From NCBI RefSeq assembly GCF_041296385.1, contig NC_091023.1:26909924-26973923 (forward strand): DNA of 64,000 nt, written 5' to 3'. The DNA comes from Aphelocoma coerulescens (taxonomy: Eukaryota; Chordata; Aves; Passeriformes; Corvidae). The position numbers and the translations under genes are program-made. A model generated the notes under the pieces. It did no database searches. It saw nothing but the letters and a program-made list of their open reading frames with translations, and was not told where the DNA came from. Positions 25,701 to 64,000 of this stretch are shown here, piece by piece. The stretch's first letter is position 1, and each line of letters opens with the position of its first letter.

Positions 25701-28700
25701 TTCATGGTAATCTTTGTCAGACGAACATCCCACCGACATTATGGAAGTTACCCATGGGAAAATCAACCCAAAATGACTACAGGAGTTTATCTATACAAGA
25801 CAGAATCAAGTTGCAATAAAGAAACATTTCTGTTAGTAATAGTCCCATGTGAAACTCACTGCAAGTAAAGAAAATTTTGATTTCAAATAGGATAATTTAG
25901 AAGAGTGCCTATCCTTTCTTTCTTGGTTAATGCAATTTAGTAACAAATAAACTGGAAACTTCTATTTAGCTCTTTTTCCTGTTCGTAATTCTTTAGAATT
26001 CATCATTCACACAATTTTCTCATTTAGTTAGCTTTCTAAAATTGTAAATAATCCACCTGACAAATTCTCATTGTTTCGTTTTAACCCTTATTTCTATCCA
26101 AAGCTGAGATTCCTGTTGGAAGTATAGTTGCAAATCTCCCCAAGGAGCAGGACTGCCCAGAGCCAACAATACTAATTTGTAACTGCACACCACCTTATTT
26201 GATTTCACTCTTGCTTCTTTGAAGAGATAAACTGTCTAGAATCAAAATATTAAGGATGGTACTTGGATAGATTTTGGAGGAACATTGCAGTCCTAAACTT
26301 CCTCTGTGTGGTTTACAACTTACTAGATCCTCTGTTGTTTTCAATGGCTTAGTCTCAGGAAGTTGCTTCTTTGATATTCTCCAAACATACTGAGAAGTAA
26401 CCCTCAGTAGGAGCTCCTGAATTATTTCTTCCTGAGAGGACACTACAAGAAGAGCTTCCCAGAAATCCACCAGGAGCTGGGGAATAGTGTTTTCACTGCT
26501 ACTACACAACATCTAAGAACAAAAACGACAGAAGACAGACAGCAAGTTAGACTGCGGTGATTATGAGTAGCAAAAGTTAGAAAAAACAGGAGGAACAGTT
26601 TTTCACTTTTACTAGAAGCAAAATTTTGATTCCTTTTTTGTCCTGTGATTCTATGTTATACACTTCTAGGCAAAGTAAAAAGTTCATGAAATGATTTTAT
26701 GGTAATCAATTCTGACCAACAGTTTGATTTCTTCTTCAATATTTACTCCACTGCCAGAAATGTCAGTACAAATGTCAGCAAATATTTACAGATTGCTAAT
26801 GAGGAGGATTTTTATATATGCCAATACACAAGTAGGTGTCTTCAAAGGAAGACTCTATAGTCCACGATAAGATACGTTGTGTAGCTCAGCTGGGTATCAT
26901 GGGTAGCACCCACAAGGAAGTGCCAGCTTTGTGCCCGCAAAAAGGACTTTCATTTCCAAATGGTTTTAAACAACACTTGGTCTAGTTGGAACTATGTGAC
27001 TTGCTCTTTTTCATACAGGTCTTTCAAAGTAACAGACATAGTAAGATTGCAACACACGTACAATGAAGAACACATGTTTTAACCCAAGTCTTGCTATTCA
27101 TTGTAGATAAAAGAAAAAAAGGTTTGTCTATTCCCAGCTGAAAGAAAGAAAACTTCAGGGACACTAGAAAAACTATTAGTATTTCTTCTTATAAACTGAA
27201 GACACACACTTTTCACCAATTTATACAGATCATCAGAACATTATGTACCTTCACATTTAGGCCTGATTCTTTAGAGGTCTGTTTTAATCCTAAAGATTTC
27301 TTTAAAAGAAGCTTATGGAACTAATATAAATTCTGTTAAATTTCAGTGGCCTTAAGAAGCTTGATCACTAGGAAGCCACTGAAAGAGCTCTGAGATCAGG
27401 GTATTTTCCATTCAAATGATAGGGTAAAAGCAAAGAATTTAATGGATTTTTTTTTTCTTTACTTAACCACTATTTTGTTCCAGAAGGTCCAGTTTCTGAC
27501 TATGTAACCATCTGTCTTGACTAGAATATCTCCAACCCTCATCTTGCTATTTCTGAAGAAATGCTGAAATATGAGTGAAGGAGCAGCTGAGGCTGCTTTT
27601 CTTACCCACAACAATGTCACTATAAAAAAAATAGAAGCAAAAACATGATCACAGGCCAACCTTGAAAAAGGTATCTGCTTCTTCTAGTTCAATTTTACTG
27701 TTCTCATGTAAAGCCACAGTGGCAGCCACCAGTAAACCAGGCTGCATCTCCTTCAGGTGAACAGCAAACTCAGTTGGCATAACAATTCCTTCCTTACGCT
27801 GCTGCAGGAGTCGTGGTTGCCCAATGAAGCCACAAGCCAGTGTTGTCTACAAGCATAATTAGATATAAATCAGGTAAAGAATTCAATATATATATGATTC
27901 TAGTCAGTAAACTCAGTATTTCCTCAGGCAGTGAAATTTAGATGGAAGTAGCCAGGAAAGAAAGTAAATCCTTTCTGCAATTCATAGAGTAGCTCTCTGG
28001 GGACCGAGATCCAAATCATGTTCTGGAGCAGCGACTCCTGAAAAACAGGCATTGTGCCTAAACACTGAAAGTAACATGCTGTTGAAAGATGGAGTTAGTG
28101 TGCACATAAGAAAGATGGATTTCACAAAGAAATCCAAGACATTTGATATACAGAGTGGTTTTAAAAATCACTGGCTGACTTTTCAAGAGGCTACTTTGCT
28201 AAATTTCAGTAGACTACTTTGCTAAAGTACGATTTTTATTTTGAAAATACCCCTGAAACAACGATCAAAATGTGCTGCACTTTGTGCAACAGGAAGCTAT
28301 TTCAGGGTATGTGAGTGCTTTTGAAGGTGACTATAACAATATATTCCCATTTTAAAGACAAATGATGGAAAAATGATGCCTAAGTAAATTAAATGAATTA
28401 CACAAGAAATATAAAGCAGATCTAGAAGGAAAATTCAGATTAGCTTTCTGAAAGTGGGTTTTTTTTCCTAGTTTGAAATAAAATGCTTTTTTAAAGGTAA
28501 AGTGCAATAGAATATATTTAATAGCTCAGATTAGAAAGAAAGAAAATCCAACCAAAACAACTCAAGCCTAAACCACCTTATTCTCAAAATAACATCCATG
28601 CAGTGTGTGTTTGCTCACAACATGGCAATTTCATTTGATCGTGCTGCAAAAGCAGTTGGTGCTGAATATAATTCTTGAAACAGCTCCCCATAGTTCTCAC

Positions 28701-31700
28701 CTTGCAAGTAAAAAAACGGTTAACTTTAAAAACTCTGCAGGACTTCTTCCACCAAAGCATGATACCTAACTTTGAAACAGCTATCCACTTACTTCAAAAG
28801 TGTTTAGACTCCAAATACCTCACTGTAAGAAAAAGTCTCTGCTTCAAACTCTATCACCTTTCAATATTCCACAGTCTTGATCAAATTTAGCAAGAAGTAA
28901 TTTACAGACTGGTCTCACACATGTGAACATCTATGGCAGAGACAGCTCCACTAACATTTCTGCCCCCAGTGATGAGGAATTCTTACTTTGATAGCACTGA
29001 AGTAGGTTCTGATCTGGTCTTGGTAAGAGTTAAGTGCTTTGATTCCACATAAGATGTGAAATTGTATACAGAAACTTCTGTTTCTGAGCACAATGGACAA
29101 ATATTCTGCTCAAGAGCAATTTTCTAACAGCTGTTCACATACAGATGGTGTTTTCATGGGCATATCACATATTAATTACAGGGGGAGAGGCGTAGAAATG
29201 CGACTATACAATCCTCCCATGCAGCTGAAGAGCACTGGCAGAGTTGGTTACATCCCAGTAAACAACATTTAATTGATCAAGAATTAAGAGCTTCAAAACT
29301 TGCTTGTTTGGTAAGTCTTCACCCAAGACAAGACTACCCTACCTCCACGGTAAACTGTACAGTCCTCCATTCTACTGTACAGCCCTCCATTCTACTGTTA
29401 CTGCAGACATTCAGTGGAGTCTACACAGCATATCAGGAGGAAGGGGAGTAACCAAAAGTTTCTTTCACCGTAAAATGCAACTACAAGTCAAACTATTGAC
29501 TTGGACTTTGCAAAGCTTGAATAGCTCATGCCCTCAGCATAATTTACCTCCTTATAGGAGTCCATTTCATGTTCATACATTGTCAGGTCTCCCATTTTCA
29601 GAGCCAAGAAAGCCTTAGTAAGTGTCAGGACCACTGATGGCATCATCTTTTCTACTTTCTGAAGATACTTCACAGCTGTCAAAGGACATACGTTTCTCAT
29701 GCAGGGACTGCAAAGGATATGAGGCAGCTGCACAGGGTCCGCGAGATAGAATACCTGGAGAACTTTATTTCCTGATTCCTATTGAAATAAAAGCCATTTG
29801 ACAGTTTAGACTTTTTCAGATATACAGTCTTCTATGGCATATGAAAGTAGTGCCATTCTGTTGTTGTTTTGTTTTTTGTGGTTGGTTTGTTTGGTTTTTT
29901 TCAAAACAGGCAAGTTCAGCTTAGCTATCAAACCACAGTGCCTTTCTTGCCTCTCTCCTCCCCACTGGTAGAAGAGAAGGATTTCTAACTGTTAGTGATT
30001 CAACCCATTTTCTGGTGTGCCGGGAGAACATCCACCACCAAAATGAATTGTTTTTAGCAAACTGTATAATTTAGCAATGTTCAAAGAAACATTTGATTTT
30101 GCTACAGAAATGAGAGATGACAGAAATTTGAGGCAGGGCTTTCCTAAAACAGAAGTGTCTCTGTGCAAGTGGGAACCAGATCCCTAGCAACATGCATCAT
30201 GATAGCCAAATCTGTAAGAAGTTGCTTGAAAGCAGTCCAAAGCATCACAGGTGCTACTTGCTATGCAACAAAAATGGGAAAAGAAAAATAATGTGAAAAA
30301 GAGTAACTGTGAAACTAAAAAAGCAGCTCAGCATTTTCAAAGGGAAATTGATTTATATTTGATACACAGTTCTTAAAATCAGAACTAAATCAGCAGATTA
30401 CAAATAAACCAACTTATTTCTACCTTACTTAATTCTTCATTGGAGTCTTCATTAAGAGAATGAGTTAAGTAAAATATAAATCCTCTCTCGTATGTCTGCA
30501 TTTCATCACCTTCTGAAACTAGTCTCTTTAAAACTTCAGTCATGGATAAACCTGACATTCTGTAGTATGGCAAAGCAAGGTGGTAATCCTTTGTGTCAAA
30601 CCTGAAGGAAATAAGACAGGAAGGAAAAAAAATAACAAAACAACTATGGGCAATGCTTTTGCCATCCCTCTTTATAAGAACTACGACTACATCAAACAAA
30701 GTCGCCGGCACATCAGTTATCAGCATATATTGTTCATATTCAACATAGTGTTCAATTCTGTTTAATGACAATAAAGACAACCAGATACTGAAGAGAGGAT
30801 TAGATTAAGTAGGTTTTGTAAAACAGAAAAATTTGTGTTATATATGCAATACTAATGTAAAATAGCAAAGAATTACGGATTTTCATTTTAAGGTTACACT
30901 ACTGGAAACACAGCTCACCTATACCATTTTGATAACTAAAACATACCTGCTATAGCAGTCTCCTAAGAAGGCACAACTTTCTCTGAATGCTCTTAGAAGA
31001 TCGTCCTTCTCATCTGATTTAAGGAAATGAGGATCCATTATAGCTGCTCTGACCAGTAAGTGAGCCTCACTTAAAAGATGGATGCAGCTCTCAGTTTTAA
31101 CATTTTCGTAAGTTCTACTATAATCTACCTAGAACAGACACAGGATATACTTAGGCTGCTGACAAAAATTAGGAATATGGAGGAACAATTCTAATGAGGA
31201 TGGCAGCTATTTGAAACAGGATTATGGGCTATTAGTAACAAATGTATTACACTATATTCAGCAATGACGTGCATCAGAGATTAATTAACATTAGCTATTT
31301 TTAGTTAGCAAACAACAAAAGCAAGAGTTGGGCAATACCATTTCTCTGTAAAGCTGAATTGTTGAAACGGTGTTTATAATATATAAATTCCAACCAGGCT
31401 CTGACTCAGAATTTGTTCTGGATTTGATGCTGTCAGCCTTTCTGGAACTAGAGGAAAGGAAAAGAGTTGAGTTGTCAGTGTTGAAATAAACACTGCACAA
31501 CCAAAAAAACCCACTCATTTCATAATTCAAATGCATAAATAGGTATGTTTGCAGACTAGTAAGTGCTGGAGAGTGAATTTAAGTCATACTGGCTAACAAC
31601 AGAACAGGGATGGGCATGTTCATACATCAGAGACATCATCAGAACTGTCCACTACATCTTCTTCTGTGTTAAACACCAGGGAATATCAGAAATCATAGAA

Positions 31701-34700
31701 TCATCAAATGGCTTGGCTTGAACCTTAAAGATCATCTAGTTCTGACCCCCCTGTCATAGGCATGGCATGCCACCCACTGAGCAGGTCAGACTGCCCAGGG
31801 CCTTATCCAACCAGACCTTGAAGAGGTAAGTAATTTAAATTAGCTGTCTACTCACCTCCTGTAAGGACTTAATGCATGTTTGCCCCTGCAGCTCTATCAA
31901 AGTATTTGCCAAGTCATGGCATAAAGAGTTACCAGAATGCTTTTATTCTAAAACATTGGCTCGGTCTATAAAGCCCTGAGGTTAAAAACATTGTAGGAAA
32001 ACAGACTCTTCTTGTTCTGGTTTTTGGTTTTATTTTAACTGTACTAGGATAGTTACATCTTTATTTTCAAATTATGGCACTAAGGAGCTTAATTTTGTCC
32101 AATTTACATTCTTTACAAAAGGCAAGAAATGTATCTTCTTCAAATGCCAATTAGAATATTTGAAACAACACAACTGGCAGAAAGCATCCTTTATACAAGA
32201 AAACTACAGTATTTTGAATAGCCATTTTCCCTGACAGGTTTCTCCTTATCTTCTTCTGAATAATGTCTGCCCTAGACTTTAAGAAATATTGGTTCAAATA
32301 ACTCCTCAATCAACTAAAGTTGTCCCACTCTTGTTAATTAACTTACACTGACTTTAATAAAAGTGGTTTCTGAATAGCTGTTTAGAATAGTTGCTTAGCT
32401 GTTTTATGAAGCACCTTCAAATACGGAAGGGGAATAGCAGTTTCCATGGAAACTTGTAAAAAGTTGCATATGCCTCTGGCTACATACATGCTACAACAGT
32501 AACTCGGGGCAAAGTCTGATCCAACTTTTGTCACGGATAACTACAGTGGTGTTCGCAACTTTCTTGGAAAGAACCCTTAGCCAAAACCAAGACATTTAAA
32601 TGTTGTCCTGCAACATATTTTGTAACCTGTAGCTTTGGTGCTATATATTTTTGGTACTCTATAGTTTTTTTCAAGATAAGTATTTTTTTAATTCTCAGGA
32701 TAAATTCTTAGCAATGTTATTTTAACATTTTGTTGATTTCAAGCATTTGTGACTTTATGCTAATTTCTTCTATGTCAGTAAATACAGTAAAAATGAAAAA
32801 AAAAAACTTGATTGCTCTTCTCAATCACTAAGAAGAGAATTATTTCTAAAGAGTTTTGTAAGAGAGGAAACACTCTTCAACTGCAATATCCACAAGTTCA
32901 GCACTGTACACAGAGCTAGAAGTACCATCTCCCTAAAAGACACAAATCCTTACAGCATCCTTCTTGTAGGCTTTCTTCTTTCAGTAATATCTTCTGTGTC
33001 TGCCTTAGTCAAAAGAATTATATGGTTTTTGAAATGACAGATAGCTCTTGGTCCTATAAAAAGCTGCATTCTTAATGTACAGACATCCAGTGTGACAGGT
33101 GGACAAGCCTATAAAGGAAAGCGACTGTTTTGTAATTTCATTTGGTATGTACATTGAGTTTTTAAATAAATCAGAAAAAAAAAATAACCTTTGTACAATG
33201 ATCTGACATTAAAAACATTCACCGGCTTTGCTTACTTTGAGTGCTTCATTTGAGCAAAAAAAAAATACTCATAAACGCCTAACAAGAATCATTTAATAAT
33301 GAGTGAAAAAAAAATTATTTCACTCTTCAAAGCAACTGCACAGTTTCAGCTATGTTTCTCAAAATAATAGAACCTGAGGTAGATGCCTAACATGGAAAAC
33401 TTCATCCCAAATAGTTTGAATTTGGCCAAGTTTTAAAAGACTGCCTGGTTATAAAAGTCTTGATTTCAGTTGCTTATAAAAAGCAATTACAGATAGAAGT
33501 ATTATATTTGCTTGCCTATTGTTACCTTACATAGCCAGTATTATTTCCCCAATTTGTTCTACATGCACTTTTCACGTAAAACATATGCTATCATCTATAC
33601 TGAACTAAAAATTGAAAAATGCAACCTCATTTGCATGGAAATATTCTAAATTTACAGCCTTAAAAAGATAAAATACTACACTTACAAATTAACATACACA
33701 GTGAAACAAGACAACACAGCACTCTATGTGTAACCTGCTTTTAGAAGACACCTCAACCTTTCTTGTAAGAGGTGGAGGCCTACGGTGGTGATCTGGAGGC
33801 TCTAGACCGCCCTGGGCTAGTGAGACCCAGAATGAGGTGGCTCTAAAACTGGTGTAAAAAAACAGCAGGAAAAATAGTAATAGCAAGTAATAAAAATAAC
33901 CACCATCACCCATCACACTTCAAACTCCACACTGGGGCAGGGACACCCCTGAGGGACTGTAGCCCATGCAGGGATCCATGCCAGAGTGGGTGGGCAGACT
34001 GTGGATGGCAAGATGCAGCATGGAAATCTGTGCAGGATTGCAGCCTTCACACCTCTCCAAAATTCCTACAGAGACAGGAGGCAGCCTATTGCCTGACTGG
34101 AGGAATTGTGACAAATTTCAATGTAACCCATAGTGAAAACGCAGAAAGTTGAGACTAGAGAATGGACGGAAAGATTGTGTCACGTGCCAGTATTAGCTAT
34201 CCAGAGCAGAGAATACATGTTTGGCTCTTGAAAATTTTATAAAGCTTCTACTGTCCTATGGTTTCTTTATGTCTCCTGTCTACATGCTCAGAAGAAATCC
34301 TTAAATGCTATCTTAAAATACACCTCCGTCTATCTTTCCTACTACTTTTATTAATGTGTATCATGATCTTTACATTCAATAGATTTTTACTGATAAGCAA
34401 TTTAAGGAAGGGGAAAAGTTTAGACCTCCAAGGATCAAAAGCCCTCCTCCTAAAAAACATGCCCTAAATATTTGGTAGCAGACTTGTTCAATTGCCTACG
34501 TGCCTCTTAGAAAAACTGGTTTTTCAAGGACACCTAAGAGAGAGAAACATCACACAATAAAAGAAAACTCTTCACTCTTCCTTCAGTTTTATACAGAAAA
34601 GCATGGAATTTAGTTTTAAAAAGAAGTGATTTTATAGCTTTTCACGTTTTTGAAAACATTCTGCTAATGGTCTAGAATTTTACATGGCAATAATAGACTG

Positions 34701-37700
34701 TTTCATTGAGAGATCTGTAGACCACCAAAATACAACATGCCATAGCCTGAAGTAAAATATTCATTTTGGATGTTATTTTATTGGTTCAGCCACTAGAAAC
34801 TAACAGGATCTCAAAAGAAAATGTAAGTCAACTAAGTGCCATACCACTACTCCCATTCTTTTAGTGAGATAATGAGAGGTGTACCTTCACCGTCGTGTCA
34901 ATATATGGATCCTCATCACGAGCTGCTGCTGCACTGCATCTCACTGTGAAGCACTGCAGGTTCTGACTAGAGGGGAAAGAAGAAAACACAACAATGAAGG
35001 AAAGAAATTAAGACTTGCAAAAATCAAGTAGCCAAGACTACAGTGAATCAGCTCTTTTTTCTTTGAAGAAATGGGCTTTAAAGCCTAAGCAGGAAGGTAT
35101 GCTGAACTAATACACGAGCCAGAGATTTCCAGGAGGCTATGAGGGACGTATCAGAGGGGAAAAAAAATTTAAAAAGGACAGCAGCATAGAGAAACATAGT
35201 AATACTATCAGTAGAATCATAAACATAGTACCTTGTAATGACATGCAGGAACTGTGGAGTGAGGACTGCCTGCTCTGACTTCTCCGAATATTGGTAAGTA
35301 GAAATTAGTTCTACTAACTTCCCAATAGAGTAGAGATATCCAACATGAGGTAAAGAGAAAAAGCAAAAGAGACTCAGAAGTTTTCTCTCATTCTCAGTTT
35401 CCTCACAGGCTGTTGCAGAACTTCCTAGATGTAACAATAAGAAAGGTATTTTATGTACTTCATAAATCAAAACCTGGCAATTCCATTCCAAGCCTGATGC
35501 CTAAAAGATACAATCAAACCTGCCCAAGTTGCAGACTAGTTTTCTTAGTAGCTAGTAAACAAATAGTTTTATATGAAGCTCAGTGCACATGTCAAAAATT
35601 TGTATGACGTTATCTCATTTGGAGGCATATTCACAAAAATATGGACGTAGCACCTAGTGAAGAAATTCTATAGATGTAACAGCATTAGAGAGTCTTGGTA
35701 AATTCACCACAACTAAGCATCCGTGGATTTAAAGTCTGATCTTAGACAATTACTTTTAACGTGGAATGAATGCTCATCCAGAACTGCAGCTCACAAAAAA
35801 ATAGGTCACCACTTAAGAAAGGAAAGGCTGGAAATGGCAGAATTTATTAGGACGCCACTTTAGCAGGTAACAGCTGTGTTCATTTTCTACAGACCCTCTT
35901 GTCAAAGCCTGTAAATCACATGAGAGCATAACACAGCTGGAGTTAAATGGCAAGCAGCTCATTCTTTTCAGTCAGCTGCAAGTTAAATGAGGCATTGCTA
36001 CTTAGCAGACAGTAAATAATCTAAAACCGAGTGAGAAGTCAGTAAAAGGCAAGGGCCAACCATACCCTGGGATGCATCAGGCACAGCACTGCAAGAGGGG
36101 CAGGGATGGTATTGTCCCACTCTGCTCTGCTCTGCACTGGGCCAGCATTATCTTGAGTCCTAGGGACAGTCCTAGGCACCACAATACAGGAAGGATATAA
36201 AGCTATTAGAGAAGAGGCTAAGGGAGGGCTAAAAAGATGGTGAAGAGTCTGGAGGGGAGGCCATAGGAGGAGCAGCTGAGGGCACTTGTTTTTTTCAGCC
36301 TGGCAGAGACTGAGGAGAGACCTAAGAGCATTTTACATGCAGTTCCTGAGGGAATGGCATGAAGCTGTGTCAGGGGAGGTTTAGGTTGGGTATTAGGAAA
36401 AGGTTCTTTCCCCAGAGGGTGGTTGGGCACTGGAACAGGCTCCCCAGGGCGGTGGTCATAGCCCAAGCCTGCCAGAGCTCAAGGAGCATTTGGAAAACGT
36501 TCTCAGGCACTTGGTGGGATTCTTGGGGTTCTCCTGCACAGGGCCAGCAGTTGGATTTGATGATGCTTGTGAGTCCCTTCCAACTCAGGACCTTCTATGA
36601 TTCTATGACATCTGACTGCTAACATACAGCATTAAATTCTTCCATAGGTCTTTTGGGGCTTGAGCTAGTGAACCCCTAAAATCTGCATTCATCCCTTCCA
36701 GTTTTAATTAAAGCCCTTCAGGAATGTAACCAGTATCTTAGTGATTATTAACGTTTACTACTCTGATTTCCTCGGCTGGCTGAGAGGCAGTCTAGTATCT
36801 TGTAACTCTACGGAGAATTTTATTAATGCAATGTGAAGACTGACTGTTTTGCAACACAAAATTTATCAGTAAAGAACTGATAAAAGCTGATTTAGTCACA
36901 CTTTTTGTGTGATGAATTGGTATGTTAGTTCAAGGTTTATGTAGAACTTGGACAAATTAAGACTTTTTGTTAACAGAAGCTCAGTTTAAACAATTGAAAA
37001 GGGAGGAAGATCTCAATTTAAAAACAAATCATACAGAAATCACGCAGTGTACAAAACAGGATATACAAAGAAGCTCCTTCCTTTCACAGGTCTCCTATGA
37101 CACAGTCCATAGTGCATTCATGCATATCCATATACCTGTCTGGTATACAGGAAGCAGTTGAAGAGAGTGCAACTTTGTCTCTTCGCAAAACCCAAAAGGC
37201 GACTGATCGGGTGCAAAACGTCTAGAAAAAAGTCCAAAACAACATGGGACTGCAGTGAGAAATTATGATGATAAACTCTGGACAAGTAAACAGCACTGGT
37301 TATAAGAGGCACAGCTCATGTTTCAACACTCAATAGTAATGCATACTCTTACTACCAATGCCATTGTAGAAGCCAAGAAGCAGCACAGCTAGCTAGAACT
37401 ATATTGAGTTCCTGCAACCAAAATCCTCTCTCTTTGCTTGTCTGCAAGATGCACGTCAAAGTCTGAGATCACTGAAGAAATCCTGCAATTGATTTTGACC
37501 TCAATTTAACCTTCTTTTTCCTCTCTCTTTCTATTCCACTGAGCTATATGGAACATCATGCCATCTACAATACAATTTTTTCCCTATTATGTGACATCCT
37601 TTTCCCTCCTTTGCTTTGGAATTCACTGTTGGACCCTGACATCAATTCTTCCTCAGCTTTTGATAGAAATTTTGATGAAAGAGGAAGACTAAATCAGCTT

Positions 37701-40700
37701 CCTGAGGAGGGGACCTGGAGAGGCAGGTGCTGAACATTTCCCCCTGGGATCCTGGGACAAGATACCTGGGAAGGGCTCACAGCTGTGCCAGGGGAGGTCC
37801 AGACTTGACATGAGGAAGCATTTTCTTACCGAGAATAGTGAAACACTGAACAGGTTTCCTAGAGAGGTGATTGATGCCCTAGACCTGTCACTGTTTAAGA
37901 GGCGTTTGGACTGTGCCCTTAATTATATGCTTTAACAGTGGCTCACCCCAGAAGTGGTCAGGCAGTTGCACTAGATGATTGCTGCAGATCCCTTCCAAGT
38001 GAAATATTCCAAGATAGTAAAAAATGGGCTTTATTTGGTATCCCATAATCGCCTCAGTTCCAAAGAAACATCAAACCTTATAAAAACCCCAGAAGTAAAA
38101 ACATCAGGAGTTTTCTTTCAAAAAGACAAAACACACAACTCAGTTTGGTGTTTTGCAGTAAATCAACCCATAAAAGGGAAAGTATGTCTGTAATACCTGA
38201 AAAGCAGATACTGCACTTGGAAGCGCTTTATGTCTTCTGTAGGTAACTCTGTGGATTCCAGTGTGATGGGTATCTCACATAGCTTACTTTCTTCCCCAAG
38301 CAGTTCCACTGGCTTCTGACATATGATGAACTCATCTAATTCAGGCTGTAAAGTATGTGTTGAAGGACTTTCATCTCTCACACCTGAGCAATGAAAATGC
38401 TATCTTAATTGTTCAAACCATTCCACTCGGCAGTAAGAAAATGGTATGACATAATATCAATTAAACGCTCCAATTACAGCTAGCTAGCTAGCACTGGCTT
38501 CCTCAAACCACAAGATTTTGAAAACAACCATGCTAGAAGATGGGAACAATTCCTATTTAAACCTCAAAAGTCTGAATACTTAAGAGTCAAGATTTCTGGG
38601 GAAAAAAAACCCAAACAGTAAACGGTTCATTAGAAGGCGAGTCCAAGGCAACCAGTGCCGCAAATGGCTGGTCATCAAAAAATGTTGACTTTTGCCTGAA
38701 GAGGTTTTGAGAAGGCAGAGGCAGCTATCACAGGAAGCTGTGTTATCTTAAACTCACTTAAGTCCTGGAAAGCAAATCCTAATAACACTCACAAAGTAAC
38801 TGGAACTTTTCTATGTAGTTTTCAGTAATAAAAACAACTAGGGGTAGGACGCCACTATCTGGGAAAAGATCCATGTTCACTCAGTGAAGAACATTACATT
38901 TATATTGTTCCCACCTGAAGAGTCTTATTTACCTTTAAATTTTTTCTAGGTACAGTTTCCATTCCTAAAAGACCATCCTTTTAAGTTTCTTCAATTATAA
39001 AGAAAGGACCTTCCTAAGGTTTGTTGGTGTTGATCTGATACATATACGTTTGGAAAAGTGGGAATTGATAATTCATTACATACAGATTGCTATCTTGCAA
39101 TACACAGGAATGAAACCTCCTGAGTACACCTATTTCTGGGATTTCTAGAATTCTAAGGCAAGCCCCTGAGTAAGATAACGGCCTGAAAAAGGAGAATGTG
39201 CTTTATTATGGCAGGTTCTGAGCCTAACAGTTACAAAAGCACACAGACATCACAACAGAAACATTCTTAATTGTGTAAGTCAGTTACTTAGGCAGTGACA
39301 CTGATAGAATAATTTTTCTGAACACAGCACACTGAACTACTACCACTTTAACTTGGCCCATTGTGGCACCGTACAACAGGGAACTAATTCCGTGTCTGCA
39401 GAGGCTGTACTACCCTCTAAGTGTGATGGCATATTAGTATGAAATGTTACCTCCAACTGCAGGTTGGTACAACTTTTCACGCCCTACATTATTCAGCTGA
39501 TAGTCAGTGATAGGACGATCTGGAAATATTTTCTGAAGGGCAAAGACCCTGTTTGAGACTACTTTCAGAACAACAGGAATCAACTAGCAGATTCTTGGAG
39601 ATAAAAAAAAAAAAAAATTAAAATTATTTCAGGACCTACCTCCATCCTCAGCCTTTTCTGGTGCACTGACTCCCTGAGCACATTGCTCTGTCCTGTCTGC
39701 ACTTTGCTGAACCAGTTTCAGGATTAGAACATCCAGCTCTGTTGTTACAGCTATATGTCTGGCACAAAATGCAACTTCAGCAGGAATGAGGTTATCAATG
39801 TGCAAAATTAATGAGCGTTCAAAATCTAACACAGTCAAATTCTGGTTTATGACCAGGTATTTCAAACAGAACATGACTAGTTTATTCTTGCAGCCCACAA
39901 GAAGATCTCCATTCACAGGACAACATGAAATGCACAGTGGAGGATCTGAAAGTGGCATTTCAACAACTGACATCTGTTCTTTTAAGGTTTCACTGTATGA
40001 CTCTTCCATCTTGTGACCAACCATCCGAACGCACACGCGAGCACTCCCTGAAGACATGCATCTCCAGTTCATATATGCTCTCAGGAAAGTTGCTTTGCTT
40101 TTTTCTTCAATTGTCACCAGATAGTCTCCTTAAAAGAAAGCATACTGATATATCATTAAAAAATAGAGGACAGTTTCTGAGCTCTTTACCTGCTGTAGTA
40201 TGCTACAAAGTACATCTTCAAGTCTCAACTCTTACCAAAAATTCCAAAAACAGTTTTCACCGATTTTTCTCTAATTAAATACAAAGTGCAAATTTCTTTG
40301 CTGGGTGGCACACACTTCACACACCAGTAAAAAACAGGACTTACAGATGTAGATCCAGAGTAACTCCTATGTGAATCATCTCTATGAGTTGTGACTGCAG
40401 ACAAGGTCCCCCCACTCCCCGCCTCCTCACACCCATTAATGAGGAAATGTTTTGTTCTCTACAGACCATGGAAAGCAATAGACTTATGAAGAGCTGTAGG
40501 ATCGGCTGGAACGACCACCCACTCCGTGCTCTAAAAACAAAAACAAAAAACCAAAAGCAGGGACGGGGGCACAGACCGCAACCGAGGCGGAGGCAGACGA
40601 CGAAGGGAGATGCGGCCCGCACCCTCTCTGCAGGCTCAAGCGCTGCCAGCGCTGGGACCGGCCCGCGCTTCCCAGCCCAGGCCGCCGGGCAGCCCGCTCC

Positions 40701-42253: not shown

Positions 42254-46142
<3,889 letters not shown>

Positions 46143-47570: not shown

Positions 47571-47753
47571 GCAAATGATAAAACTCTTGAAGAATTGCGT
47601 GAGGCATTACCGAGTAAAATTAAGTTGGTTCTGAGCTCTGGTTCAGATGAAGAACGCACAGTTTGCTTGGAATCATTGACTCTTCCTGTGATAACACACT
47701 GTGCACATATGTTTTGTAAACCGTGTATTTTTGAAGTCCTCATAAATGAACAA
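47571..47753 (+). pseudogene. HLTF: HLTF relic 1: first half of the RING domain
   Basis: The frame reads LEELREALPSKIKLVLSSGS and then PVITHCAHMFCKPC, clearly the HLTF segment before and within the RING finger. The first zinc-binding Cys (human DEECAIC) is Arg here (CGC at 47,655-47,657). The left edge (ttgcaaatgat) has no AG acceptor; the right edge keeps only a poor donor (gttggt). An upstream ATG makes the frame look like a 111-residue ORF (47,511-47,846), but its ends are intron sequence. Confidence 0.9.
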
Positions 47754-50700
47754 GTTGGTTATTCTATGGTTAAAAGTTACCGTAATAGCTATTCGAAAGC
47801 AATGAACTGCTATCACCAGAAGGCCATCTGGCTATTGTTCTTTTAAATCATGGTGAAGAGTGCAAACAGTTATCAGCTGGCTTTTAAAAACTCTTGGCCT
47901 GAAGTCAATCTATGGAGAGAGTAGCTGTCAAACTGAACAATGGTAAGGTCCATCAGTATTTTCAAAAGCTTGTTCTGTAGTTCTTACCTTACTTTTTCCT
48001 TCCTCCTGGGGTAAAAGTGTGCACTGTTGTATGCCTCCTTATGGCTGGGTGCCTCTTCACTGCTTCTATGGGATGTGATGCACGTAGATATTATTGTGCT
48101 TAAAAGAGACCAAAGCTGTGTATTGGAAGTGGACTGTTGAATTAAAATCATGTCTACACTCCTTTTTCCAAGCTGATAAATTTTGACAGTGGGCCATCTT
48201 TATGGCCCTTCTCTGGGCTCTATCCAGAAAAAACTTGCGGATGAGTATACTTTAACTGCTCTTTTGAAAACCATAGTATTTATTTTTCTTGTGTGCTTCT
48301 AAGTTATACTTTTCCTTTTTGTTTGCCCTTTTCTTTCTAGGGCAATATAATGGCATGGTAGTCTCACCATCTGTATCCAGCGCTGCTGCACTTACTCTTG
48401 GGAATTGTTCTGCCTCCTCTTCAGCCAGAATAGAGCTGCAAATGTTAGCACAAACCTGGGTGGTGTTCTTTATTAGGAACAAGCAGGGATAGATTAGTCC
48501 CTGCTTGTGCATAGTCAGTCAACCTAAGAAGACAGAGGTGGCAAGTGTGGTCTGTCTGGCTTCTGGACTGACATTGTTCCATTGCCACATACACAAAATT
48601 TTGATGCAGCTATCCCACTCTATAGAGTTCCTGAGAAATTTGTGGGAAACTAATGAAGGAAAGAGCACTTGCAGAGGCCTTTTTCCAGTGCAGAGGTTCT
48701 TGATGTGTCTGTAGCAGTCAGTGCCTCTACTGAACCTTCTGGTGCTTTTAACATGCAAGAAATAAACTGGGTTATGATGTGATGAAATTATCATCATTAT
48801 ATACTACTTGAATGTAAAGTCCAATTACTTACTATGTTTTGCATAGAAAGGACCATGGAATCTCCAGAACTACTGCCTTTGTCCAACCCCATGTTATCTA
48901 TAGATTGCTTTCATAGTAGTGAAGCCTGAACAGAGGTGGGTGTGCATTCTGCTCTTTTGAACTATCATAAGTTTCTAAAACAGTGAGTGAATAAGCCTTT
49001 CTTACCTTCAAAATGATTCCTGATTTCAGTCAATTACCAAGGAGGTTTTTGCAGCTTTTAGCCAAAACTCTGACATGCATCTAAATCCCAGCGTTGCGGA
49101 ATTCACTGTTTCCACATGATAGGTATTAGTCCTAGTACTGCATCTGAGCTGGGTAGTTTCTGTGCCTGAATGGCTACAATGCAAATCTCTCCTAGTAAAA
49201 AACGTGGGAAAGCACTTTAGGTATCACCTTGAAAACAAAGGAGACCAACAAACTGCATACCCTCTCCCCAAAGCAGCTCGGGTTCAAACATGATTCTTCC
49301 AGGCAAGATAATGGTTGCCATTATTAATACAAATGACAGCATTAAATCATCAGTGAGACATGAAATGTGAAGCTGCAAACACAAAACTGCTGAGTAAAAA
49401 GTTTGGCCTGTCATTGTATTACGAATTTGGCAGTTGTTTTATCTTTCTAATGCTAACCTAAAAGCATTTACCGAGATTGGAAAAACTTCTTAGTACTTAA
49501 CAGCTTGAGAGTTAACACGACCTTCATTTCAGTCTTCTGTTGAGACTAAATTTAGAGTTGCGCAAGTAAGTAAAGATCCTATGCAGAAGTAAGATCTCTA
49601 CAGAAATCTCATGTCTTTGTGTATCAACTGCATTCTTATAAAAGCTTGCCAGATATGCATTCAAACATTTTTTCTTCTTCTAGCTGTTCATTGTGAGACA
49701 TTTCTTGTCATTTTCATATGCTTTTACCGTTAGTCTTCAGTACCTGTGTTGGCATTGTTCAGCTGACTTTTGTGTTTTGTTTATAATTACAGTACTAAAG
49801 TGGATAAGGGATGCAGAAAGATGCGAGCTTTTTTAAAAAAAAGAAAAAAGTTTTTATGAGCACTGTTAGGATTTTTTTTTTTCCAGAAGACTTTTTTTCA
49901 CATTTAATAGAATTAATTTATTTTGTCTTGTCACTGGAGGATTTTTGGTTTGCTGCCAAATCAGGAATGGCTCATTCGTTCACTGCCAAATCAGGAATGG
50001 CTCATTCATTCAGTACATTTGGAAAACTGTTATTTCAAATTTGTGTTAAGATTCTGTCTCTCAAAAGGATGCCTTTACTGCTGCAATAAATTAAAATATC
50101 TGCCAGTCTCTTTAATTGACTAGTGACTCATTCCAGATTAGCAGCCCCCAGTATTCATGTGCTTTGTGAGGTCTGCTTTGTAGCCTCTTTAAAGATGCCT
50201 TGGTTCCGTGGTCAGATTTCTGTAATTTTAAAGGGTTGCTCTGTTAGGCAGAAGTTTTTCACGTCTGTCATTTTTGCTTCACAAAGTTGTCCATTTGTAC
50301 AGTGCACACAGTCTTCTGTTAAATTTTGTGAGTAGTCCTATGACAGTGCTATTGTATAAATTTTGCTTTACCTAGAATATACTTCAGAGAAAAAGGCTTT
50401 TGGTGTTAAATTATGTCTCATTTCATGTGTCTGTTGAGGAAAAAGAGAAGGTACCCCGTGTCTGGTCCTGACAAAGCATATTTCATCAGGCTGCTATTAT
50501 TTCTGTGCAGGCTTTGAAGAAAAAGGGTAAAAGGTCATTCTTTGTTTGTAACTAAGAAAGATATTGTCTTTGAAAGATGGTTTATTTCTTTCATATTTTA
50601 AATAGTCTCACTCCCATAGCCCAAATATATCCTTGCTCTAAAACTCTGAGCTATTTATTTCAATATAAATATGCTCAGAAAGAAGACCACTTCGCTTTTA

Positions 50701-50948
50701 AGGAAGGCTGAGTATTTATAAAATGTGTAGTGTTCATGTCATGTTAATGTTCTTGCAAATGAAATATTTTGACTGTCATGTCAGAAATGACAAAGTGTGG
50801 GACAAGAATGAATCCTTGAGGATTTTTTTTACACGAACATCAATATAATAAATGCATAAAAGGTGCTTTGTAAAGGTGATATTTATCATTCACTATAAAT
50901 AACTAGATTTAATATGTTTCTTTTAATGTTGTTTGGGCTTTTTCATAG
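47754..50948. other. Fossil HLTF intron with small repeats
   Basis: No coding segment recognised. A short minus-strand CR1-like phrase (ggcccttctctgggctctat near 48,207) and a 30-bp tandem duplication at 49,953-50,012 are the visible structures. The frame at 48,252-48,512 (minus) has no recognisable product. Confidence 0.45.
49953..50012. repeat. 30-bp tandem duplication
   Basis: A 30-bp unit starting ctgccaaatcaggaatggct at 49,953 is repeated immediately at 49,983 with one or two differences, suggesting a recent duplication. Confidence 0.85.
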
Positions 50949-51071
50949 CCAAACACCCTCCCTGCAGGAGTGAGCTTCAAGTAGACAACTTAGTGGAACG
51001 GTCCCCTAGAGGAGGAAAGAGGCTCCAGTAATGGAAAGAAGCCTGATCAGGAGTGGATATCTAGCTCAAAG
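50949..51071 (+). pseudogene. HLTF: HLTF relic 2: end of the RING domain and linker
   Basis: The acceptor ttttcatag is kept. The codons for PNT are followed by a deletion of about 7 nt that removes one of the last RING cysteines and shifts the frame. The shifted frame reads CRSELQVDNLVER (human CRNDIHEDNLLEC). A further 1-nt insertion then moves to a third frame reading LEEERGSSNG and DQEWISSSK (human ..MEWTSSSK). The indel sizes are judged against the remembered human protein. Two frameshifts make this exon non-coding. Confidence 0.85.
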
Positions 51072-52494
51072 GTGCTATTGTGTTTTATTTAGCTTTCATT
51101 ATTAGCTTTCATTATGGTTTTGTAGAGCATACTCTATAACTGTGTAAATATACTGAACGTATTATGCATATGGATAACATTCTTCAAGTTATTGTTTAGA
51201 AGTCTGTCCAGCATGTCTAGCCAGCACAGAAGAAAATGGGTACTAAAATCATATGACAAGCAAATTTTGCAGCAGGGAAACAAGACAAAAAGAATACCAG
51301 TTGTAATGTGATGCTGGTCATTGTTCAGTATGTAGATGTGTGTTAATTAAATAAAACTTCTAGTAAAGAGCTTTGCCTTTTGTTTCAGTTTCTGAAGATA
51401 GAGCAGATTTATAACCACTGAAACTTATTGGAATCTTAATTTATTTTTGGAAACAAAATCTAAAGAAATCCTTCTTTCTTAAATCTTATTTAAACAATAT
51501 ATATTCTGCTCTAGAGGGGAAAACTAAATGGGCATATGTTCAATACAATGCTTATCAGGAAAAACATTGTGATATTGTTATTTTACTTGGTAGACTTGTT
51601 TCTCAAGGTCTGCCACATCATTTTTCTTTGCCTCACTCTCATTTGCTGCCGGAATTTGTATCTTCCTGCTCATACTTTGACCTTTTTGTTTTGAGATGGC
51701 TTTTCTGAAACATTAAGTTTTTAACTTTTTATGAAGAAATTGTTCTTTCACATGCTGGTTACAAATTTATTCCCTAAAAATCTTTTTGTGGGGACCTAAG
51801 AACTCATTTCAGGCATTATGATCTAGAATAAATCAAGATTTTAATTATTTTCTTTTTTAGCTGGTGCAGTTACTTGCATTCTCTAGTTAGTTCTTTACCT
51901 CCTAATAGCTAAACCTTACTGAGAAAACGAACAGTGTTCTTCTGCCTCAAAATCCCATTCCTTGTCCTTTTGTTCTCATGCTGGTTCCAAGAGAGCTTCT
52001 GGTGCCTCCTTATCCCCTGTCATACCTAGCCAAGGGTCTTGCATATCTTATTTGCCTCACTATTTGTGGGGGAAGCCTTTCTCGCTTCTTGAGTATTGCT
52101 ATGGTAGAGCACTTGCCTTGGGGCTGTCCACTGCTTAAGCCTTATTTTCTGAAGTTCCAGTACTTTGTTCCTATTTTCCATATACCCTGGAGATAGGGGA
52201 CTTGCAGACTTCTGACAATGTGAAGTGTGTTTGGAAAATTGGCTGTGAATCCTCTTTCCCAAAGCACTCTCAATCACCCTGTAGTTTGTGACCATTAAAA
52301 ATGCTGAACCCTTAGTTTCCTATGGAAATTAAAAGGAAGCCTACCCACAGAATTCAAGATTAGTTAATTTAAAAGGTATTATTGAACAGTGATTTCTCTC
52401 AATTGATGTGAACTTTATCAAAGCCATCTGTAGGAATGGACTCCAGCCAAGTCAGAATAAGTTCATTTTGGATAAATGCTTTATTTGATTTCGG

Positions 52495-52607
52495 ATAAAC
52501 GTATTTATGCATGCTTCAGTAGAACTACGGAGGGATAGTCCAGCAGCTAAATGTCTGGTTGTTTCTCAGCTTACAACTTTCTTGTCACTGATAGAAAACC
52601 CCTTGAA
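52495..52607 (+). pseudogene. HLTF: HLTF relic 3: MHA..LVVSQ segment
   Basis: The open frame reads INVFMHASVELRRDSPAAKC and then LVVSQLTTFLSLIENPLK (human INALMHALTDLRKKN.. and LVVSQFTTFLSLIEIPLK). The donor (aa|gtaagt) is intact and in the correct phase for relic 4. The acceptor has changed from the expected ttcag to ttcgg, so this exon could not be spliced normally. Confidence 0.9.
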
Positions 52608-52786
52608 GTAAGTAGAATTGATGTTATTTTCAATAAATGTGTTTTTATGGTGTTTTAGAAAGACCTCTTAAAGGAAACAGAATTTTACATACACATTTCA
52701 AAGCAGAGATTAGGCTTTTATTGTATTTATTTCCTGTTGTCACTGAAAATGGATTGTTAAATTGAACATTTTTACTTTCTCTTTAG

Positions 52787-52972
52787 AGAATCGGGGTTTG
52801 CCTTTACTCATTTGGATGGATCAGTGCCACAGAAGAAAAGAATGGAAGCAATTTGTTGTTTCCAAAGCAACCAAGCAGGGTCCTGAACTATAATGCTTTT
52901 GTCTGTGAAAGCGGGTGGAGTTGGATTAAATCTGACAGCAGCTTTCCGAGTGTTTTTAATGGGTCCCATGAG
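52787..52972 (+). pseudogene. HLTF: HLTF relic 4: helicase C lobe with premature stop
   Basis: After a good acceptor (tttctctttag) the frame reads ESGFAFTHLDGSVPQKKR, then an in-frame TGA at 52,884-52,886, then TIMLLSVKAGGVGLNLTAAF (human TIMLLSLKAGGVGLNLSAAS). The right end reads gtcccatgagtaac, where a donor G-GTGAGT would be expected; the GT is gone. Two independent disabling changes lie in a segment that is otherwise well preserved. Confidence 0.92.
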
Positions 52973-55834
52973 TAACGGGTTGTTCATAATGATATGGCTT
53001 AATCTAGGTGAAGCTTCTTTGGTGTTTTCCTAAGAGGCAGAAGGAAATCCCGTCTGAGAATGAATGACACAGATGACTATCTGTTAAAAGGCAAATAGGA
53101 CTTTTCTTCTTTTTTTTCCCTAGCATCTTCTTGTTTCAACTCTGTATTTTTGTGCTGTCCATTTATTTACTGTGAGTGGGAAGAATGCTAGTAGTACTAC
53201 TAACAGTCATAGTACTTCACCTTACAGTGTAGCATATGCTATCTGTTCCTTCTTCATACCTTTCTTTCTTCCTGATACTTTTGAATGAGGTTTCCTATTT
53301 GTTGTTTATGGACTTCAAAAGCCATAAAGTGGAATTTGAGGAACAGTATATATTTAATGTAGTGCTTGTCTGCTCTAGTCTCTTTTGTTATTGTTGAGAA
53401 TTTATTTATAAATTAAGACATTCATCTGAGGTTACCTTTTGTGGTCATGGGAGACTAGTAATACCTAAATTTAGAAAGTTTTTTCCTTTCATTAAAGCAC
53501 TCAGAGATGCAAAATTATTTGTAAGGAATAAAAATGCAAATTACCTTTATTGATAGCAAAATGGTATTCTTAGCAAAATTGGTTCATGTTCTGTGTCACT
53601 GTACAACATCAAGCTTTTTCTATTCACTTCCTGCCTTCCCCCCATTTACTCCTCTGCTGTAATGTCCAAGTTTTTTGGCAGTTGGAAACTGAAACAAATT
53701 CTGCACTTGAAAGAAACAAAATTATAGTTTAGCTTTGGACTTGGACATCTGTCACCACCAATAGTAAAGGAAAGGTACTAGCCTGGACATCAGGGCAGTG
53801 ATATTGACAGTATGAAGACAAAAGCTATTTATTTAATACATGAAAGAAATTAAGTATGAGTAAGAGTATAGAGAAATTGCCGTGAAACAATTTTTTCTTG
53901 AATCACAATGCATCTTCAGAAATATGGTCTATGTATGTACTGCATTGACCCGTTCAGTTGGAAGGGATCTACACTACCATAATGCCATCGAGTCTGACTG
54001 CTGCTTTTTTTTTTTTTTTAACAATTCTCTGAATACTTGTGGAAACTGCAAGAGAATTTTAATCTGTGAAAATAATGAATGAGGTATAATGAATTCATCA
54101 TATTGTGGCAAGCAGTTCTAAGAAAATAAGCTAAGCATTGTTAACACCGAGTCATCTACAGTCTATAGTTATACCTAACAACCCTGGGCCAAATATAATT
54201 GCAGCCTTTATACACCACTGAACAGCATCATCCTGCTGGTAGCCATCCTGTGAGGGTAACCATCCCAAGGGGCAGTGGTTGACTGTGTGTATTTGACGGA
54301 GGAGCAGTGGGCCCACATGACCCTTTACGACTTGAATAATCAGTGCCGAATGAGATTCAGTCATGCATTAGCATTCCTTGTAGTGCAGTAGCAGCAATAA
54401 TAGGATTTAAGAAGCAGAAATACCAGTGGAGTAACCAGTTTTTCAAATTCTGTGGATTTATTGTAGAACTGTAGCTTGGAGGTCTGCATTCCTTCTCTGA
54501 GAGGTGTAATACCACAGTGCAAGGCAGGAATATTTATCCAACCATAGATTACTTTCTCCCTCTGCCCCCCCCCCCGACCTCCCCCCCTTTAAAATTTTGT
54601 TTGTTTAAATACAATCATAGATGCAGAATTCTCACCTTTAGGAAGAAATACGAACTTTTAATGTGAGAATATCACAAGTATACAGATGTTTCTCTATGGC
54701 TTAGGCTTTTTAATATTTTCCAATGTAAAATACAGTATCCTTTGTATGAGATACTGCAGAAATCATAGAAGTACTGCAATTCACTTTTCCTGTGCTGGAC
54801 TGATGAGAGAAGAGTGAAAGTAGTACACTTCAGTCTTTCTTGACTACAGCAAAAATAGAATGGAATACACTTCTGTATGTTTGGGCTACATCTTTCCTCC
54901 AGACCATGTTGTTCTCATACAGTGAGATTAATATTAGAACAGTTTGCCATATATAGCTTGCCAGGAATGTTCATCTTGCAGTGACAAATACATAATTTGT
55001 TGCTCTTTTGCTTACTACCATAGATTGGAGAAACAAAACTTGTTTGGCTTTTATCTTGCAGCTTGATGTCTCTAAGTGTGTGTAGGCATCAGAGGTTCTT
55101 AGAATCTGAAATGAGTCCTTAGAAGAATTCTTAGACAACTTGCAGTATGTGGGTGACATGACAAGGAGAGCCCACTGCACGAGACTTATCAGAGACAGGA
55201 CATTATTACAGTTTATGTAGATTTAAGTATCTATTCTCTGAGAACTAGTAGGACTGTACCTCTAGATAGATAAAACATGCTGGAAAAATGCAGAACACAA
55301 ACTTGGCATTTCATAGATCCTTATATTTAATGTTACATCCAAAGTATAAGTAGTAACAGCTACACTATCGATTTGCATTCAGCAAAGTTTCTTCTTTACC
55401 TAACATGGTGATTATTGTATACACTAATGAAAGCATACGTGGGCTTTCTTAACAGTTCAGTTTACTGTTAAGTAACTGCCTGTGTCCGGCTGATTTAGAT
55501 TTTGCCATCAGGTACGGAGGCAGTTAGTATATGCAGTGTTTGTTTCAGAATTAAAATAACAGGATTGTTTTGATATCTCCTAGATTCCTGACAAACTCTG
55601 TTTTTAAAGCATTTACCTGAAGTTCCTGCTTGTTATGAACATATAACCCGAAGTTCCCAAAGCTATCTTTATAGCAGGATACTTAAAGAGTAAGACATTA
55701 GTTTGGAAGTAATTAATCTGCAAGCAACATTTGTTCAAGAGGTGATGGTACAATATCTGCTTTGTGATTCCGTGTGCACTATTACTATGTTTTGAAGGGA
55801 GGTTATTTAACTTGTTCATTTCTGCTACTAATAG
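52973..55834. other. Fossil HLTF intron
   Basis: Mostly AT-rich. Near 53,950-54,015 the phrase 'ttcagttggaagggatctac' resembles a minus-strand CR1 or SINE 3' tail. An 11-C run and a 7-C run lie at 54,565-54,587. Nothing else is recognised. Confidence 0.4.
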
Positions 55835-55914
55835 CTTGGAACCCCACTGCAGAAGACCAGTGTTTTGACAGGTGTTGCAGGCTGGGTCAGAAGCATAATG
55901 CTGTTATTACTAAG
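55835..55914 (+). pseudogene. HLTF: HLTF relic 5: helicase motif VI
   Basis: Following an acceptor (ctactaatag) the frame reads (A)WNPTAEDQCFDRCCRLGQ and then KHNAVITK (human AWNPAAEDQCFDRCHRLGQ..). The conserved His of the HRLGQ motif is Cys (codon 55,876-55,878). Downstream the frame soon meets TGA, and the expected FIVKDSVEE text is not there. Confidence 0.9.
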
Positions 55915-61427: not shown

Positions 61428-62761
61428 CTACTGCAGGTAGGTATCAAGTTTCTTCTTGATGTTGTCAAAGGAATCCACTCCCATATAGTCAGCTTGGCCC
61501 TGTTCCCACCGTTCCTTGCGTTCTTCTGAAGATTCAGTTGGTAATAGTGGTGATACTGATACGTGGGACACTGCCTCTGTAACTTCTGCCTAAAAGGAAA
61601 AGCAGAGTAAAAATATACAAGTACTTTGTACAGCTAAAACGAGCAACAGGCCATAAAATGGGACAAGAAAGTAGCTGCTATCATGCACAGTAGCAAGCAG
61701 TGCCAATAGGAAGGGATTGTGCAGCTTTCCTAGCAAAATAACAAAGCAGAGTTACAGAAGTTAGCAGGGGAGGAAAAAAAAGAAAAAAAGTAAAGTTTAA
61801 GTTCTTCATACCTCTCTACAGAAGCCACAAGAGAAAGCCAGAGTATAGACCAAGCCCGATAGCTGCAAATAGTTTGTTAGAAAGATGCAAGATTACCAAG
61901 AGAAGCACATCTTAAGAGATCAGTAACTTTGGTCTTAGAAAGGCTGAGAACTTAAACTGGCCCATGTACTAAGCTAAGACTAAGAAGTCTGCAGTCATGC
62001 AGGCTACTAAATTCTGTGAATGAGAACTAGAGTTAGAAGCGTTACTTTGGTTTTAAAAAGTATTGGCATTCATCACTGCCTGTTTATGTAAGTATTGATT
62101 CTCTAGTTATCTTAGGCTTACCTAAATGTGATTCACCATGCAAGATGTGTATGTACATATTTGCATGCTGAACCGGGGTTCTTCTGCTTGAGAACCTTAT
62201 TAGCTGCAACACACTGAGAGCTGGGCCCTTCTCTGTATACATTAAAGAAATTAGTACATCAAAGAAGTTACTACAGTACAATATCTGGTGCAACATTAGC
62301 TACCTACAGAGTTTGTTTTAGGCAAGCATACAGCTATGTCCAAGACCTGTCTAGCATGCTTCTCTTTTGTAGTATTATTTATTCCAAGCTTAAAAGGACA
62401 AAACTAAAATACCCTGCGCATCCCACAAACTAAACCACACCCATGCTTTGAGATGGACAGAGGGAAGGGAAATTGATGCAATGGTAAATAACCTGTCATC
62501 CATACTTAGGCATGGATGTACAAGACTATTAGAGCACGTACCATGTTTGCCCCTGTAGTAATTTCTTTAACAATTCCGTGCTGTTCTAGTAATGGTAAAA
62601 CATCAGCTATGTAGGTATCCCACCACATGTTGAGGAATTCTGGGTGAACTATTTTAGGGTCGTCCATGTTGCCCTTTATGCTTTTTGTTCTGGAGTCATA
62701 TGTATAGTTCCATGGCTTTGTGCTTCCCAGGAAATGCACGACCTTAGTATTTGCACCAAAC
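61428..62761 (-). CDS. GYG1: Glycogenin-1, last three coding exons (partial)
   Basis: Glycogenin attaches glucose to its own tyrosine and builds the primer that glycogen synthase extends. Exons in transcript order: 62761-62542, 61862-61812, 61589-61428, phase-consistent with GT-AG borders. The first carries [12 protein letters not shown] and KPWNYTYD; the His in VVHFLG belongs to the metal/UDP-glucose site of the GT8 fold. The second is a 17-codon exon reading [17 protein letters not shown]. The last ends [20 protein letters not shown] and DTYLQ-stop, the conserved C-terminal segment that binds glycogen synthase. The catalytic DxD and autoglucosylated Tyr exons are not in the window and should lie to the right of 64,000. 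The gene is tail-to-tail with the HLTF relic. Confidence 0.95.
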
Positions 62762-64000
62762 CTGTTGGACAGAAAAATTTTAGAAGCCAGTTTGTACATG
62801 TGTCTAGAAAATGAGTTTTGACTGGCAGACATAATTTCTTCTAACCTGCTATTTCTTATTTGTCCAGAAAACAGAAATATGAATATATTTAGGAGGCTAA
62901 ATGCTAAATGATTGAACTGCCAATGCCTATTGAGACTGAAAGCATTGCAATACAACAGAAACAATGCAAACTGAATTCTACATTACACTAGTCAGAATGC
63001 AGCCAAAACCTAGTGGTCTGGGCTATTTAAATACTTACAGACAACTCAAGCCTTTAGGGTGATGTCCATAGCTCAGGAGAGAGCAGTCTCAAGCAGCCGT
63101 TGCAATCGGAACTGGTTTTAAAAGTGAAAAAGATTCTACTCCAAAGTCAGCAAGCCAGAGAGTTAAGCATTACAAGTATTATGTGGAAAAGGGTCAGTAT
63201 TAACAGTTAAACCTTTCAGTTTATAGCCCTGTAGAAATGGATCATTGGCTGCCTCTGCTGCAAGAAGACCATGTCCCTGCAAAATAATAACTTTGTGTAA
63301 CCAAGGCATTTCAGAAGACTCCTGATCTTGGTGCAGCGGGGTCTTGCTAGACTTAGCCCTTACTTAACCCTTATTTCCTAAATAACCTTAGGGCAGCCAT
63401 GCATGGGTTTGGTGGTGGGCTGGCTTGTTTTTTTGGTTTTTTTTTTCCTTTTTGAAACCATTTAAACTCCATTTTCAATATGGACTTCCAGCTTTGCCCC
63501 AACTGTTATCAGTATGTTCTTTGGTATTAAAAGTATAGCCAAGATGCACCTCTTCTCAAGTAAAGAACTTGACACTGAAAGAGACAACATTCATTTCATT
63601 CTCCTACAGTTCCAGAACTAGGTTTCAGCTTGATTCAGTTTTGTGAACAAGCAATACCAGTCTCTCTACTACCAGTGACTATCTCACCTAGTTCAGTTTA
63701 TATCACTTTAGGCTTTCTTCTCAACATAATATGACTGAAATGGAGAGTAATGTCAAAGTAGCTTGTCTAACATTTTATTAAGCAGACGCAGATCATTTTG
63801 ACCGGGACTCAGGCATTAAAGAGTTTTACATATGGAGACAATACAGGTGTGTTTCAAAAGCCATAGAATATTCAAACTGAGTATGCGTGTGGGTGGGGGT
63901 GTGGGTTTCATACTATTTTAAGGTTCTTGACTGTATTTCAATGTTCATGTTCAATGTTTTGAATATAACCGATCTTATTGCAGAATGAAGACTTATGTGT
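62762..64000 (-). other. GYG1: GYG1 intron sequence up to the window edge
   Basis: No exon matching the preceding part of glycogenin (..NLSSISIYSYLPAFK..) is recognised, so this is probably one intron. A short exon-like segment at about 63,220-63,283 is discussed under findings. Confidence 0.5.

Follow-up and report, generated by a model that had tools for sequence, protein, structure and literature searches.

A decayed HLTF gene at its native locus in the passerine bird Aphelocoma coerulescens

Vertebrates have two orthologues of Rad5, and HLTF is one of them. It acts in DNA-damage tolerance, where it assembles ubiquitin chains on PCNA and restructures forks that have stalled. Birds without this gene are not new: a review describes the chicken as lacking HLTF, citing Tomi 2014, and SHPRH-null DT40 cells as having no detectable defect in PCNA ubiquitination (PMC6316486). 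Passages on human TK6 cells report that deletion of HLTF does not substantially raise damage sensitivity. Gene loss in songbirds has been described for cornulin (CRNN), which, according to Feng 2020 (PMC7759463), is disrupted or absent in Passeri and has been lost in cormorants and Accipitriformes as well. HLTF is unmentioned in the main text of that paper and in the main text of Lovell 2014 (PMC4290089), and in the open-access literature, with the chicken literature covered only in part, we found no report of HLTF loss in songbirds or other birds.

Here we follow up an earlier note which, from the DNA letters alone, read a stretch of the A. coerulescens genome as a wrecked HLTF gene at its native place. 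The window is the whole stretch analysed, 64,000 nucleotides long (contig NC_091023.1, positions 26,909,924 to 26,973,923), and positions below are those of the window. As far as the assembly shows, this first reading is supported for this bird. The type of event, gene death, is ordinary and the gene is unexpected; what this analysis adds is a check of the whole genome, a placement of the relic among passerines, and arguments that the loss is old and distinct from that of the chicken.

Five disabled exons between alpha-tubulin and GYG1

The window was searched by tblastn with a human HLTF sequence, with six bird and reptile database proteins (Alligator, Struthio, Calonectris, Dromaius, Anseranas and Chauna) and with two suboscine proteins (Manacus and Smithornis). 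All queries recovered the identical five plus-strand exons at 47571-55914, colinear and covering human residues ~732-959, just as the earlier note had ordered them; exon B matched in two frames. The relic and its neighbours are as follows.

25007..40129, minus strand: HPS3 exons, all five ORFs scanned having a Pfam match to HPS3_N or HPS3_C
42254..44805, minus strand: alpha-tubulin gene adjoining the relic, with Pfam matches in three of three ORFs and solved structures
47571..47753, plus strand: relic exon A, first part of the RING, corresponding to HLTF residues ~732-792 in human numbering (tblastn, part-match to Pfam RING)
50949..51071, plus strand: relic exon B, last part of the RING plus linker, residues ~795-835 (tblastn, two frames)
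52495..52607, plus strand: relic exon C, first part of the helicase C-terminal lobe, residues ~835-872 (tblastn)
52787..52967, plus strand: relic exon D, helicase lobe, residues ~872-932 (tblastn)
55835..55914, plus strand: relic exon E, residues ~933-959 (tblastn)
62506..62982, minus strand: GYG1 (glycogenin-1) exon, with solved structures at E 1.6e-27 and the whole ORF without a Pfam family

Manacus HLTF matched exon A at 47568-47753 (79% identity, 98 bits), exon B at 50948-50998 (71%, 27 bits) and 51003-51074 (79%, 44 bits), exon C at 52492-52608 (82%, 68 bits), exon D at 52785-52976 (81%, 100 bits) and exon E at 55819-55914 (81%, 59 bits). With the Manacus and Smithornis queries together, exons A, C, D and E scored 57-102 bits; in exon B the first half reached 25-27 bits and the second 44-47 bits. 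The chance maximum in 40 dinucleotide shuffles of the whole window with the same queries was 29.3 bits. Because the shuffles reach that value, the first half of exon B is not significant by itself and is assigned from its place and order. The closest solved structure to exon D is RAD5 (6l8n); no HLTF-named chain occurs among the best 60 of 76 and of 75 solved-structure matches for two relic pieces.

The remainder of the gene is missing from the window, as had been claimed for the 5' exons. At E<=1, tblastn left the 5' two thirds of HLTF unmatched, finding nothing before residue ~703-717 of the queries from birds and reptiles, and nothing past the ITK of exon E, where the last exon should follow; the exceptions were scattered matches with E values of 0.37-0.82. 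The SNF2 ATPase N-lobe is accordingly absent from the relic, and among the best-scored candidates elsewhere in the assembly it was met in paralogues only. There are no repeats of at least 40 bases at window positions 45-62 kb.

The position of the relic agrees with an original gene. In what we take to be the human gene order, GYG1-HLTF-HPS3-CP, HPS3 and GYG1 are the neighbours of HLTF; the relic lies between HPS3/alpha-tubulin and GYG1 and therefore at the native HLTF locus, and the earlier note's placement between a tubulin gene and GYG1 is borne out by the identification of all three neighbours. One HPS3 ORF is without any solved-structure relative. An exon near 5.7 kb resembles coagulation factor V and ceruloplasmin, and from synteny we take it to be ceruloplasmin. 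The alpha-tubulin gene (42254-44805) stands between HPS3 and the relic, a position where mammals presumably have no alpha-tubulin gene; its promoter may lie in a GC-rich stretch at ~45.4-46.5 kb, which perhaps once served as a promoter of HLTF too.

Each of the five exons carries damage. The first RING cysteine, in exon A, is replaced by arginine (CGC at 47655-47657), and a second RING cysteine, in exon B, by histidine (CAC at 50954-50956). Exon B also has one extra base in CGGT at 50999-51002, a +1 shift. The acceptor of exon C is GG rather than AG (52493-52494), exon D contains an in-frame TGA (52884-52886), and the donor GT is gone after both exon D, which runs into ATGAGT (52968-52973), and exon E, which runs into GGG (55915-55917). 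In exon E, the motif HRLGQK has its histidine changed to cysteine. The earlier note counted at least six disabling changes with one cysteine and one donor among them; the lesions are present, and two of each are lost. It also claimed two frameshifts, and here the shift at CGGT is seen directly, whereas the other, a start of exon B that is probably short by about 7 nt, is suggested by comparison with protein only rather than with intact DNA. The relic thus holds no complete C3HC4 RING, two cysteines being replaced and the domain being split by the change of frame, and no open, spliceable frame through Helicase_C, given the TGA, the GG acceptor, the two donors without GT and the +1 shift. GT donors are intact at 47754, 51072 and 52608 (that of exon C reading GTAAGT) and AG acceptors at 50947, 52785 and 55833; three donors and three acceptors left in exons spread over 8.3 kb show the relic to be intron-bearing and not processed.

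Search for a working copy and alternative readings

The earlier note had named an intact HLTF elsewhere in the genome as the finding that would count against it. The assembly searched comprises 1.33 Gb in 660 contigs, of which C11 (27.1 Mb) carries the window, and genes are met in it exon by exon. The relic accounts for four of 47 assembly matches of Struthio HLTF and five of 47 of Manacus HLTF, at 57-80% identity; all other matches of these two queries are at 51% identity or below. The candidates scored were the best 46 of 196 for Struthio, 46 of 184 for Manacus and 45 of 3044 for Anseranas, and among them nothing matched residues 1-451 of Struthio or 1-465 of Manacus. The HIRAN domain, present in both bird HLTFs scanned, had 0 matches in the bird's own assembly at E<=10, in a search without a vertebrate positive control and for a domain likely split over exons; Corynebacterium gave the only match among 14 control genomes. 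An SNF2 search listed 106 stretches, showing that such genes are detectable here. At the assembly level, and among the best-scored candidates, there is no functional HLTF elsewhere.

Two sets of matches were set aside. The strongest outside the relic, at C6:21.416 Mb, is a single long SNF2 frame, which we take to be ERCC6L, and HLTF's other domains are absent in the stretch examined. Matches of Anseranas HLTF at up to 61% identity belong to a repeat-like insert (~residues 316-422) and not to HLTF; Struthio and Manacus were chosen as queries because the Anseranas search was swamped by them. The insert in the annotated Anseranas protein matches dozens of places in this genome and is probably an artefact of the gene model. 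At C34:20361115-20459936, on a contig of 21 Mb, there are pairs of SNF2 exons with equal scores, inverted and ~75-100 kb apart, a palindrome-like arrangement; C34 is, at a guess, W.

Along its length the relic has lost residues that intact genes keep. Over 226 aligned residues it shows 15 private changes at 115 columns that are invariant in the others, while each of 46 intact sauropsid sequences, hand-picked from 263, shows between 0 and 5, the five being those of a turtle. In a FastTree phylogeny its branch measures 0.194 against 0.025 for Smithornis. These private changes at invariant columns argue that purifying selection has been lost. Under assumed neutral rates and split ages this would translate into ~24-61 Myr of unconstrained decay. 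The estimate is no more than a rough guide, since its upper end exceeds one of the assumed split ages.

We therefore regard the relic, with high confidence, as a unitary pseudogene: the bird's own HLTF at its native locus, long dead. Its 5' two thirds and last exon were probably deleted, and its death probably fell tens of millions of years ago on a passerine line. It is very unlikely that a working HLTF exists elsewhere, with the relic as a dead partial duplicate, or that a working copy stayed unassembled. The genome searches cover the best-scored candidates, an assembly of 660 contigs may have gaps, and a divergent copy is conceivable; on the other side, the relic occupies the place of the original between HPS3/tubulin and GYG1, and, outside the repeat insert, neither another HLTF match above 51% identity nor a HIRAN match was found among the best-scored candidates of an assembly in which 106 SNF2 stretches were listed.

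Harder still to credit is a present use of the remnant, whether a 112-codon ORF at 47508-47846 makes a small RING-like protein or the locus gives a non-coding RNA. This ORF is open and has a partial Pfam RING match, but its first RING cysteine is arginine, the remaining part of the RING is in a different exon that is frameshifted, and invariant positions have decayed along the relic. Least likely of all is a living gene disguised by assembly or sequencing errors: seven or more separate lesions within 8 kb are unlike errors, and so are the missing 5' and 3' parts and the 15 changes at invariant columns, which are distributed along the relic.

If the relic is such a unitary pseudogene, deletions would have taken the last exon of HLTF and, at the other end, its first two thirds together with the promoter side, and either these or the small lesions could have come first.

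Passerine placement and extent of the loss

Residues that distinguish passerines from other birds place the relic within the order. Of 14 columns where passerines differ from most other birds, the relic agrees with passerines in 8, and in all five of the cleanest, defined, by a cut chosen after the list was inspected, as columns with the residue in at least 6 of 7 passerines and at most 1 of 36 other birds. The passerine clade including the relic has a support of 0.967 (FastTree), compared with 0.981 in an earlier tree with two passerines. Contig sizes of 121, 169, 126, 80, 80 and 72 Mb are also in keeping with a passerine karyotype. Within it, the relic stands beside Smithornis (0.639), and that pair is next to the tyrant-manakin group with antbirds outside (0.900). 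Taken literally, this nesting among suboscines speaks against an oscine loss; it probably deserves little weight, as a placement from 226 residues on a long branch with no oscine gene for comparison.

The protein lists point in the other direction. With a Manacus HLTF query, the passerine rows among the best 120 of 7784 are Manacus, Pithys, Cephalopterus, Myiozetetes, Tachuris, Smithornis and Sakesphorus, of which we take none to be an oscine, and so no oscine HLTF occurs among these 120. A songbird orthologue would be expected near the top of such a list. With lists that end at the best 120 and were built from 90% clusters, and with the presence of oscine proteins in the database being our assumption, the oscine absence is a lead and not a proof. 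Galliforms and ducks are likewise absent from the best 120 of 7784 with Manacus and the best 120 of 7995 with an alligator query. Anseranas and Chauna, unlike ducks, do appear in the best-120 lists, which makes ducks candidates for a further loss.

An HLTF death tens of millions of years ago would belong to a passerine line; its assignment to the songbird line, and to early oscines in particular, is a guess. Oscine songbirds make up about half of all bird species. We see about an even chance that HLTF died once, early in oscines and independently of the chicken absence, and that songbirds are natural HLTF knockouts in which other enzymes have kept up PCNA chains and fork remodelling for tens of millions of years.

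Damage tolerance without HLTF and comparison with known losses

With HLTF gone, its ligase and fork-remodelling roles are either dispensable in this bird or taken over. Cells would have to manage without the PCNA polyubiquitin-ligase and fork-remodelling activities of HLTF, and SHPRH would be the nearest candidate substitute, with other ligases possibly filling in. SHPRH sequence is present on C4, with the helical domain above cut-off and five stop-free SNF2 stretches just upstream. For ZRANB3, which the earlier note had suggested beside SHPRH as a possible substitute, one guessed stretch at C7:29.30 Mb gave no convincing match (best E 0.011). A passerine loss on top of the chicken absence would, if true, mean that vertebrates can dispense with HLTF over long times, which agrees with the reports on SHPRH-null DT40 and HLTF-deleted TK6 cells. 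It would offer a natural experiment on the rewiring of damage tolerance, and it cautions that the human set of fork remodellers should not be assumed in bird cells.

Set against the HLTF/Rad5 family, from which it derives (64-88% identity per exon to Manacus and Smithornis by tblastn), the relic is no longer a member: where the family has HIRAN, SNF2, RING and Helicase_C, it has neither HIRAN nor the SNF2 N-lobe, nor a complete RING, nor an open frame. The cornulin loss is comparable in that a gene is disrupted or absent in songbirds, and it differs in concerning another gene, one also lost outside Passeri. The nearest parallel for HLTF itself is the chicken, likewise a bird without the gene, but a galliform where ours is a passerine. 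The earlier note considered HLTF loss in a bird lineage to be notable; this holds to the extent that passerines are another lineage, and less so in that a review already describes a bird without HLTF (the chicken, PMC6316486). Many birds between chicken and passerines have an annotated HLTF, and the two losses therefore look independent.
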